Source: Modestobacter sp. VKM Ac-2985 (GTDB taxonomy: Bacteria > Actinomycetota > Actinomycetes > Mycobacteriales > Geodermatophilaceae). From it: a stretch of DNA of 64,000 bases. The translations under genes and the position numbers were made by a program. Under the pieces are notes generated by a model that saw only the letters and a program-made list of their open reading frames with translations, did no database searches and was not told the DNA's origin. This document shows, in pieces, positions 2,374-33,819 of the stretch (position 1 is the first letter of the stretch; every line of letters starts with the position of its first letter). The stretch lies in assembly GCF_026967925.1 (NCBI RefSeq), contig NZ_JAPVBI010000003.1, forward strand, positions 933,070-997,069, read 5' to 3'.

Positions 2374-3399
2374 ATGGACCTGCAGACCGTCTGGTTCGTC
2401 GCCGTCGCCGTGCTCTGGACCGGCTTCCTGCTGCTGGAGGGCTTCGACTTCGGCGTCGCCGCCCTGCTGCCGGTGATCGGCCGCAAGCCCGCCGACCGGC
2501 ACCTGATGCTCCGGTCGATCGGCCCGCTCTGGGACGGCAACGAGGTGTGGCTGATCACCGCGGTCGGCGCGGTCTTCGCCGCCTTCCCCGGCTGGTACGC
2601 CACCTGGCTGCCCGCGCTGTACCTGCCGTTCGTGCTGGTGCTCTTCGGCCTGATCATCCGGGCCGTCGCCTTCGAGTGGCGGCACTCGCACCACACCGCG
2701 CAGTGGGACAGCACCTGGACCAACGTGATCACCACCGGCTCGCTGATCGCCGCCCTCGGCATCGGCGCGGCGCTGGGCGGCACCACGCTGGGCCTGCCGG
2801 TCGACGGCGACGGGGTGCGGGTCGGCGGTGCCTTCGCCGGGGTGACCTGGTCGGCGCTGCTGGGCGGGATCGCCGTCCTCGGCTACTCGATGGTGCACGG
2901 CGCCGTCTTCCTGGCGTTGAAGACGGAAGGCCCGGTGCGGCTGGCCGCCCGCGCCTTCGCCCGGCGCTGGTCGCCGGTCGCCGCGCTGCCGCTGCTGGCG
3001 TGGGCCGGGCTGGTGCACCTGCGCGAGGGGACGACCGTGACCGCGCTGCTGTGGCTGGTCGCCGCGCTCGCCGTGCTGGTCACGTGGGTGAGCACCCGAC
3101 TGGACCGCGAGGGGCCGGCGTTCACCGCCTGGGCGGTGGTCATGCTCGCCTCGGCGGCGACCATCTTCGGCGCCGTCCACCCGGTGGTCGTGGTCTCCTC
3201 GATCGACCCGGCCTTCGACGTCACCCTGGCCGAGGCGTCGGTGAGCGACTACACGCTGACCGTGATGACCTGGGTCGCCGGCTTCGGGCTGCCCGTGGTG
3301 CTCGGCTACCAGGCCTGGACCTACTGGGTGTTCCGCAAGCGGCTGACCGCCGACCCGGAGACCCCGCACACCGCCGCCGGCGAGCCGGTGAACGCGTGA
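2374..3399 (+). CDS. cydB: Cytochrome bd oxidase subunit II
   Basis: This 341-residue membrane subunit pairs with CydA. It starts at ATG 30 bases after the cydA stop and opens with the family signature WFVAVAVLWTGFLLLEGFDFGVAALLP, where the GFDFG motif is diagnostic. It continues with LWDGNEVWLI and AFPGWYATWLPALYLPF. The spacing and shared direction make it part of the cyd operon. Its TGA overlaps the GTG of cydDC by four bases, so translation of the two is probably coupled. Confidence 0.98.
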   Translation: MDLQTVWFVAVAVLWTGFLLLEGFDFGVAALLPVIGRKPADRHLMLRSIGPLWDGNEVWLITAVGAVFAAFPGWYATWLPALYLPFVLVLFGLIIRAVAFEWRHSHHTAQWDSTWTNVITTGSLIAALGIGAALGGTTLGLPVDGDGVRVGGAFAGVTWSALLGGIAVLGYSMVHGAVFLALKTEGPVRLAARAFARRWSPVAALPLLAWAGLVHLREGTTVTALLWLVAALAVLVTWVSTRLDREGPAFTAWAVVMLASAATIFGAVHPVVVVSSIDPAFDVTLAEASVSDYTLTVMTWVAGFGLPVVLGYQAWTYWVFRKRLTADPETPHTAAGEPVNA

Positions 3400-32479: not shown

Positions 32480-32704
32480 ATGACCGAGGACACCGGGCCG
32501 GCCGGGCACGCCGACGTGATCTGTTCGGCGAAGGGCTGCCGGGCGCCGGCGACCGTGGTCCTGGTGTGGAACAACCCGAAGGTGCACACGCCCGACCGGG
32601 AGAAGACCTGGACCGCGTGCGAGGCGCACCGCGAGCAGCTCTCCCACCACCTGGCGATCCGGTCGTTCCTGCGCCGCGTCGAGCCGGTTCCCCCGCTCGG
32701 GTAG
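32480..32704 (+). CDS. Small zinc-ribbon-like protein
   Basis: The protein has 74 residues. CSAKGC near 15-20 and CEAH near 48-51 could bind one zinc. The central VVLVWNNPKVHTPDREKTW is recognisable from short actinobacterial proteins sometimes mislabelled acetone carboxylase. The function is unknown. It starts at ATG after the 172-bp gap from the SDR and ends eight bases or so before the TPP riboswitch. Confidence 0.75.
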   Translation: MTEDTGPAGHADVICSAKGCRAPATVVLVWNNPKVHTPDREKTWTACEAHREQLSHHLAIRSFLRRVEPVPPLG

Positions 32705-32711
32705 CTTCAGC

Positions 32712-32801
32712 GGCGCACACGGGAGCCCGGGCGCGGGCTGAGAAGGCGGACGACCACCGCCGACCGTCCACACCTGATCCGGTTCATGCCGGCGGAGGGA
32801 G
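32712..32801 (+). ncRNA. TPP (THI-box) riboswitch
   Basis: The diagnostic parts are all present and in order. GAGCCC...GGGCTGAGA (P2 with the conserved CUGAGA at 32738-32743) comes first. A P3 hairpin GGCGG/CCGCC (32745-32761) follows. The last part is ACCTGATCCGG, then TTCATGCCGGCGGAGGGA (32772-32800), the P4/P5 pyrophosphate sensor. The closing AGGGA overlaps the ribosome site GGAGGGA of the dehydrogenase, so thiamin pyrophosphate binding should hide it and block translation. Confidence 0.93.
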
Positions 32802-32808
32802 CTGCTCG

Positions 32809-33819
32809 ATGCTCGCTGCTCGATTCCACGCACCCGGTCGACCCCTGGCCCTGGACGACGTCCCGATCCCCGAGCCCGCCCCCGACGAGGTGCGGGTGCG
32901 GGTCCGCGCGGCCGGGGTCTGCGGCACCGAACTGCACTTCACCGAGGGGCTCTACGCGCCGTCCCGGACGCCGATGACCCTGGGACACGAGGCCGCCGGC
33001 ACGGTCGAGGCGGTCGGGTCCGCGGTCACCGGCTGGGCCGAGGGCGACCGGGTCGCCGTCTACTACTACCTGTTCTGCGGCAGCTGCCGCTGGTGCCTGC
33101 GCGGCCGGCAGAACCTGTGCCTGGCCCCGCGTGGCGTGCTCGCCTTCGCCGCGGACGGCGCCTTCGCCGAGCAGCTGGTGGTGCCGGCGCACTGCCTGGT
33201 CCGACTGCCCGACGAGCTCTCCTTCGAGGCTGCCGCACCGCTGTGCTGCGCCGGCACCACCGCGGTGCACGCACTGACCGAGGCCGGGGTCGAGCCCGGT
33301 GACGTGGTGGTCGTGCTCGGCGCCGGCGGCGTGGGCCTGGCGGCGGTGCAGGAGGCCCGGCGACGCGGCGGCGTGGTCGTGGCCGTCAGCCGGGACGACG
33401 CCCGCCGGTCGGCCGCCCGGTCTGCCGGGGCCGTGACCGCGGTCTCCCCCGCCGAGCTCGCCGAGACGGTGGCCCGGCTCTCCGGCGGGCAGGGCGCCGA
33501 CGTCGTCGTCGAGCTCGCCGGGGTGACGGCGACCCTGGAGCTGGCGACGGCGGTGCTCGGCCGCCGCGGCCGGCTGGTGCTGGTCGGGTACAGCGCCGAC
33601 GCACTGACGGTGAGCCCGCTGGGGATGGTGGTCGCCGAGCAGCGGGTCATCGCCAGCGTGGGCAACACGTTGGCCGAGCTGGAACAGGCGGTGTCCCTGG
33701 CCGCCGCGGGGCAGCTCACGCCGCCGGTGGCCGGCACGATGCCGCTGACCGAGGTCAACCAGGCGCTGGACCGGCTGCGCGCCGGGGACGTCGCGGGTCG
33801 GCTCGTGCTCGCCCCCTGA
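32809..33819 (+). CDS. Zinc-dependent alcohol dehydrogenase (MDR family) under TPP riboswitch control
   Basis: This 336-residue medium-chain dehydrogenase has catalytic zinc ligands in GVCGTELHF and GHEAAGTVE. Structural zinc cysteines lie in CGSCRWCLRGRQNLC. The Rossmann motif is VVVLGAGGVGLAAVQ, with RGRLVLVGY after it. It starts at ATG nine bases after GGAGGGA, which is the 3' end of the TPP riboswitch. The substrate is unknown. Thiamin control suggests a role in thiamin precursor synthesis or salvage, or in a pathway tied to thiamin status. No recognised thi gene lies in the window. Confidence 0.92.
   Translation: MLAARFHAPGRPLALDDVPIPEPAPDEVRVRVRAAGVCGTELHFTEGLYAPSRTPMTLGHEAAGTVEAVGSAVTGWAEGDRVAVYYYLFCGSCRWCLRGRQNLCLAPRGVLAFAADGAFAEQLVVPAHCLVRLPDELSFEAAAPLCCAGTTAVHALTEAGVEPGDVVVVLGAGGVGLAAVQEARRRGGVVVAVSRDDARRSAARSAGAVTAVSPAELAETVARLSGGQGADVVVELAGVTATLELATAVLGRRGRLVLVGYSADALTVSPLGMVVAEQRVIASVGNTLAELEQAVSLAAAGQLTPPVAGTMPLTEVNQALDRLRAGDVAGRLVLAP

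Follow-up and report, generated by a model that had tools for sequence, protein, structure and literature searches.

Given that thiamin metabolism is well mapped, a TPP riboswitch placed directly ahead of a gene for a zinc-dependent alcohol dehydrogenase raises the question of what such an enzyme might do for this vitamin. We find an oxidoreductase without an assigned substrate linked with TPP control in lineages across the actinobacteria, the ties being the riboswitch, thiamin-related neighbors at 17 of 35 loci, membership of a single clade and a shared cofactor signature. In earlier work TPP-controlled genes were sorted into biosynthesis and transport categories, and the terms "dehydrogenase" and "oxidoreductase" are both absent from the main text of that paper (PMC3766115). 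The riboswitch itself is of a known kind; within the openly accessible papers that we searched, we found neither a report of a TPP riboswitch paired with a zinc alcohol dehydrogenase nor a description of this enzyme family in a thiamin role. The evidence presented below suggests that the dehydrogenase probably catalyzes a step in the synthesis or recycling of vitamin B1 that has so far been overlooked. We consider it reasonably likely, as an overall reading, that a TPP-repressed gene here encodes an NADPH-dependent zinc aldehyde reductase that functions in the salvage of thiamin precursors.

The DNA analysed is a 64 kb stretch of the Modestobacter sp. VKM Ac-2985 genome (hereinafter the window), in which RF00059 is the sole RNA family to reach its own gathering score. 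A covariance search recovered it over the full model length at 32709-32818 on the forward strand, which bears all the window features described here (59.1 bits against a gathering score of 54.3; E = 4.8e-9). The initial annotation had read a TPP riboswitch overlapping the ribosome site from the letters alone, and the covariance score bears this out; the landmarks that it named also lie at the positions it gave. The aptamer includes the motif CTGAGA (32738..32743), presumably part of its pyrimidine-sensing arm, and encloses the Shine-Dalgarno sequence GGAGGGA (32794..32800), which lies 8 nt upstream of the dehydrogenase ATG at 32809. One strand of an aptamer stem, CCTG (32773..32776), supplies the CCU (32773-32775) that pairs with the AGG (32796-32798) of the Shine-Dalgarno sequence, and the resulting C-G, C-G and U-A pairs recur in 30, 30 and 29, respectively, of the 30 distinct leaders. 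A ribosome site inside the TPP aptamer has been termed "direct translation attenuation", a layout most frequent in this phylum (PMC2258182). The window thus shares its aptamer, layout and phylum with the THI elements described there as bearing an internal ribosome site, and differs from those cases in controlling a gene for a zinc alcohol dehydrogenase.

Immediately ahead of the aptamer, 1 nt upstream of the Rfam match and 6 nt upstream of P1, is the putative -10 element TAGCTT (32702..32707), whose T-A...T positions (T9, A10 and T14) are nearly invariant (at least 90% in the leader alignment); it may form part of a promoter. If it is indeed a -10 element, the transcript would start at the aptamer with no space for a terminator, which argues for control at the level of translation. 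The putative -10 is overlapped by the stop codon of a small gene for a 74 aa protein (32480..32704), which has no Pfam match at 1e-5 and forms the left border of the aptamer-dehydrogenase unit in this genus.

Examination of the 30 distinct leaders revealed standard pairs in 88.5% of the pair cells, versus 84.2% in shuffled alignments and 31-50% when the partner strand was slid. Across the whole structure 31 cells changed on both sides, versus 15.2 in shuffles that ignore kinship. Two weaker measures, judged against shuffles that likewise ignore kinship, gave seven pairs with double changes, a number that 42 of 500 shuffles reached, and 21 further types of pair, which 9 of 500 shuffles reached. 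Helices 3-6 are paired in 95-99% of cells, helix 6 being devoid of double changes because most of its pairs are invariant, and P1 is paired in just 36-55% of cells in this sequence-only alignment. Leaders long enough to include them retain the UGAGA and ACC(U/C)G segments, with TGAGA present in 32 of the 33 leaders examined and the sole exception truncated at a contig end. Free-energy folding of the window leader was no better than that of shuffles (z = 0.22), and the structure of lowest energy differs from the aptamer. A model built from the leaders was run on 52 loci encoding more distant dehydrogenases and found no match at E < 0.1, the best one scoring 15 bits (E = 0.11); the chance-like level of this model is given by a 20.7-bit match inside the thiD gene of an Acidimicrobiia locus (L086).

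There are three RF00059 matches above the cut-off in the whole genome, and the window copy is thus one of the organism's three thiamin switches. The second leads thiM-thiE-thiD. The third stands ahead of a CytX-like transporter gene (215.6 bits, with a cut-off of 310), after which come thiE and thiO. Two genes diverge from this set, one TenA-like (92.9 bits, cut-off 130) and the other without an NCBIfam match at 1e-10.

We then searched 112 Geodermatophilaceae genomes at E 1e-60 and recovered the dehydrogenase in 30 of them, from 4 of the 12 genera, the remaining 82 showing none at this threshold. Orthologues lacking the riboswitch had been named in the initial annotation as grounds against its proposal; the outcome is the opposite, in that a TPP element lies upstream of all 30 family orthologues (window copy counted). 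Twenty of these elements are at or above the RF00059 gathering score, and ten score lower (27.4 to 54.2 bits), a contig end truncating the weakest of them. A rescan of 24 family loci from Modestobacter, Blastococcus and Geodermatophilus found the element in all 24, among the matches listed, in a set drawn largely from the same genomes and with a model derived in large part from these sequences; locus L042 carries the TPP label, yet its upstream side is truncated by a contig end.

Gene contexts were examined with gene calls from a custom script, neighbors being named by eye where no family score is given. At 14 of the 16 family loci outside Modestobacter the dehydrogenase gene is divergent from a thiM gene with its own TPP aptamer, and thiE- and thiD-like genes come after thiM in those loci that we opened. 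In the window and in four other Modestobacter neighborhoods opened, no thiamin gene was found beside the dehydrogenase. Overall, a recognized thiamin gene adjoins the enzyme at about half of the loci (the 17 of 35 mentioned above), and the other 18 (14 from Modestobacter, together with L055, L061, L100 and L157) are linked to thiamin by the TPP element alone.

Downstream of the dehydrogenase is a gene for a 417 aa MFS transporter, P0002 (33864..35117), which, as the initial annotation had noted, begins 44 bp past the dehydrogenase stop; its further suggestion of a co-regulated carrier of a thiamin precursor did not survive comparison with related genomes. Orthologues of the transporter occur in 86 of the 112 family genomes, both with the dehydrogenase (25 of 30) and without it (61 of 82). 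Within Modestobacter the transporter gene comes after the dehydrogenase at all 13 loci with sufficient downstream sequence. Three sites from the same genus that lack the dehydrogenase (L182-L184) retain both the upstream gene, coding for 72-78 aa, and the transporter, with neither aptamer nor dehydrogenase detected; the two retained genes are adjacent in two of these sites and separated by one opposite-strand gene in the third. The joint absence of aptamer and dehydrogenase at these sites suggests that they come and go together, and they seem to have been gained or lost as one unit, with the transporter looking like a bystander. As it is widespread without the dehydrogenase and kept near the same upstream gene in dehydrogenase-less relatives, we ruled it out as a thiamin carrier, and it is probably a neighbor from outside the thiamin system.

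Outside the family the gene is rare. Evenly drawn genome samples, searched at E 1e-75 with five candidates scored per genome, gave, besides the window genome, none in 393 genomes of the class and two in 395 of the phylum; a wider homologue search yielded at least 80 loci. Three relatives from beyond the family sit in thiamin gene clusters: 1) In an Acidimicrobiia MAG (L086; 55% identity) a TPP element of 54.1 bits, just below the 54.3 threshold, is followed by the dehydrogenase, thiD, thiE and a gene for a ThiL-like AIRS protein. 2) In an Actinomycetota MAG (L084; 61%), seemingly the same place as the phylum match L156, the dehydrogenase is followed by thiE and a ThiL-like gene and, further downstream, by a gene resembling pyruvate-dehydrogenase E1 (by eye). 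3) In Kineococcus (L087/L180; 56%) a TPP element leads thiO-like, thiS, thiG and thiF/moeB-like genes, the dehydrogenase and an NtaA/DmoA-type monooxygenase; this element scores 81.2 bits with the leader-built model, which was not trained on it, and falls below the Rfam gathering score. The ThiL-like proteins of L084 and L086 reach 79.5 and 90.6 bits against a thiL cut-off of 184, and the name is tentative. Two further relatives have simpler contexts: in a Gaiellaceae MAG (L100; 51%) a TPP element of 69.3 bits precedes the dehydrogenase and a PfkB-type kinase, and in L157 (52%) one of 50.2 bits precedes the dehydrogenase with no thiamin gene seen close by. The segment ahead of the L084 dehydrogenase (2937-3010) is at best the 3' half of a TPP aptamer, holding the ribosome site (25.1 bits, E = 0.61; 23.1 bits with the leader-built model, near the chance-like 20.7). 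It perhaps represents a riboswitch eroded to a bare ribosome site; its score is near chance.

The enzyme, P0001 (32809..33819; 336 aa), is a zinc-dependent medium-chain alcohol dehydrogenase, as indicated by its ADH_N (108.8 bits against a cut-off of 23.5) and ADH_zinc_N (73.6 against 31.8) domains. No NCBIfam family among the 25 matches listed reaches its cut-off, the best being PRK13771 (197.4 against 349). The second best, Ahr (NF047908; 175.8 against 470), is a family of NADPH-dependent aldehyde reductases of which P0001 is not a member, and whose chemistry would be of the same kind as that proposed here. In a midpoint-rooted tree of 56 sequences, 34 dehydrogenases form one clade (support 98/95), comprising those of L084 and L087 and 32 others that have a TPP leader, among them a contig-end partial; L084, L087, L100 and L157 are flagged among its long branches. 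The tree includes as outgroups 20 hand-picked members of the 50 other loci L105-L155, keeps L104 and L116 apart as a pair adjoining tenA, and leaves out 24 further family loci (including L094) and the partial gene L047. The L104/L116 pair is the sister of the clade, joined at 98/92, and its adjoining TenA-family genes score 128.3 and 134.7 bits against the TIGR04306 cut-off of 130.

The multiple sequence alignment shows Cys38, His60 and Cys147, which we take to be the catalytic zinc ligands, and Cys90, 93, 96 and 104, presumably the structural ones, in all 34 clade members. These ligands, and the fold, are common to P0001 and the zinc MDR alcohol dehydrogenases Rhodococcus ruber ADH-A, AibC and FurX (Foldseek TM, query-normalised, 0.89-0.91), the AlphaFold model of P0001 having a pLDDT of 80.9 with two of the five models poor. 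Identity to such enzymes is 31-37% over the 50 matches listed. NAD-dependent alcohol dehydrogenases as a rule end strand beta-2 of their Rossmann fold with an Asp, whose replacement points to NADP(H) use. This Asp is present at the corresponding position in the five PDB matches shown aligned and as Asp194 in 19 of the 20 outgroup sequences, and the sister pair has an Asp at 195; in contrast, all 34 clade members have Ser, Ala or Gly at 194 followed by Arg at 195, and none has Asp194. By the usual rule this replacement predicts that P0001 and the other clade enzymes are of the NADP(H) type. The TPP element and the thiamin gene context set P0001 and its clade further apart from ADH-A, AibC and FurX.

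A strong thiM match (E 6e-37 or better; no genome reaches the TIGR00694 cut-off, and the thiM of the window genome passes NF006830 and PF02110) is found in 29 of the 30 family genomes with the dehydrogenase versus 53 of the 82 without (Fisher p = 0.0005, kinship ignored). It was not found in three carriers of the enzyme, G862, G863 and G758 (the last 93% complete), and among the five dehydrogenase-positive genomes outside the family strong thiM is missing in three, strong thiG in three and thiC in four. No single branch of the pathway explains all these profiles, and they gave no one answer as to where the enzyme acts. The missing thiC in four of these five carries no information, as 118 of the 198 phylum genomes likewise lack a match. 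In Geodermatophilaceae a thiC match occurs in just 10 of the 112 genomes (three of the ten being fragments), and most members look incapable of synthesizing the thiamin pyrimidine, which they should then need from outside; a reductase recovering an oxidised precursor would suit the 102 genomes without thiC. The enzyme as a stand-in for the missing ThiC was ruled out, as thiC is more frequent with the enzyme (7 of 30) than without it (3 of 82, fragments counted).

High TPP generally shuts down the genes that TPP riboswitches control. The transcript here probably begins at the aptamer edge, and its leader would then consist of almost nothing but the riboswitch. Plentiful TPP would stabilize the aptamer, whose own stem would hold the Shine-Dalgarno sequence through CCU and AGG, and translation of the dehydrogenase would drop; with TPP scarce, the ribosome site would be free. 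This usual OFF logic, the salvage and synthesis genes in the neighborhood and a cofactor signature favoring reduction lead us to propose aldehyde-to-alcohol salvage: the enzyme most likely takes an oxidised piece of thiamin, or of one of its precursors, and reduces it to an alcohol usable by a thiamin kinase. The initial annotation had envisaged a thiamin-linked dehydrogenase, for instance one oxidizing or salvaging a precursor; the thiamin link holds, with TPP elements at 30 of 30 family orthologues and three thiamin clusters beyond the family, whereas for oxidation we infer from the cofactor signature and the OFF logic that the reverse direction is favored. As a first guess the substrate may be a pyrimidine aldehyde, giving HMP for ThiD, because thiD and thiE directly follow the enzyme in L086 and the sister pair lies beside tenA; a thiazole aldehyde, giving HET for ThiM, comes second, because thiM is the commonest neighbor and because of the Kineococcus cluster.

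The thiazole side also deserves consideration in its own right, with the enzyme reducing 4-methyl-5-thiazoleacetaldehyde to HET for ThiM or serving thiazole formation itself. The divergent thiM at 14 of 16 loci, the excess of strong thiM in enzyme-carrying genomes and the position of the Kineococcus dehydrogenase after thiO-thiS-thiG-thiF-like genes in a TPP-led cluster all speak for it; however, three genomes carry the enzyme without a strong thiM match, in the Acidimicrobiia cluster its partners are thiD and thiE, and the sister pair adjoins tenA, a pyrimidine-salvage gene, and on balance we regard this alternative as somewhat unlikely. Less closely bound to thiamin would be a general dehydrogenase of central metabolism, kept in step with a TPP-dependent pathway by a real aptamer and neither making nor using a thiamin fragment. 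P0001 belongs to the large MDR superfamily, resembles general alcohol dehydrogenases and fits no named NCBIfam among those listed, 18 of the 35 loci lack an adjoining thiamin gene, and L084 has the pyruvate-dehydrogenase E1-like gene further downstream. Nevertheless, the recognizable neighbors are thiamin genes, both at the 14 family loci outside Modestobacter and at L084, L086 and L087, and the TPP link runs throughout a single clade, which makes such a role decidedly improbable.

That the aptamer is a relic hitchhiking upstream of the gene, its TPP response lost, is very hard to reconcile with the retention of UGAGA and ACC(U/C)G, the consistent pairing of helices 3-6 and the persistence of the element across genera and beyond the family, notwithstanding the ten sub-gathering scores, the half aptamer at best of L084 and the poor P1. 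Equally slim, in our estimation, are the chances of thiamin catabolism, whereby the enzyme would exploit thiamin, or its alcohols, as nutrients by oxidizing them: the tenA-associated clusters of the sister pair do look catabolic by eye, but repression at high TPP, the general behavior of these switches, has the wrong sign for a catabolic gene, and where nearly all outgroup sequences (19 of 20) carry an Asp, the window clade lacks it and has Arg.

Extending the salvage proposal, we tentatively suggest, as a possibility well short of an even chance, that the 34-member clade constitutes a new thiamin-pathway family of NADPH-dependent reductases that rescue an oxidised thiamin fragment, most likely the pyrimidine aldehyde, with HMP as the product that ThiD would then use. 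The TenA salvage enzymes (TIGR04306) have the same supposed purpose, the salvage of the thiamin pyrimidine, and are unrelated proteins catalyzing a different reaction. The Kineococcus FMN monooxygenase of the NtaA/DmoA type (L180, 6723-8015, reverse strand), whose frame overlaps the dehydrogenase stop by 4 nt, is a possible partner enzyme; oxidative cleavage of a C-N bond by this enzyme could yield such an aldehyde, thereby opening a salvage route beside that of TenA.

Two side observations concern the surrounding genes. The tenA-dehydrogenase clusters of the sister pair (L104, 2093-3839; L116, 517-2253) have, by eye, a GntR regulator upstream and amidohydrolase-like or aldehyde dehydrogenase genes downstream (the latter in one of the two), and perhaps function in the catabolism of thiamin fragments. 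The AIRS-family proteins of L084 (4640-5698) and L086 (5565-6617) display similar sub-threshold scores to ThiL and HypE, and might represent a divergent TMP kinase.
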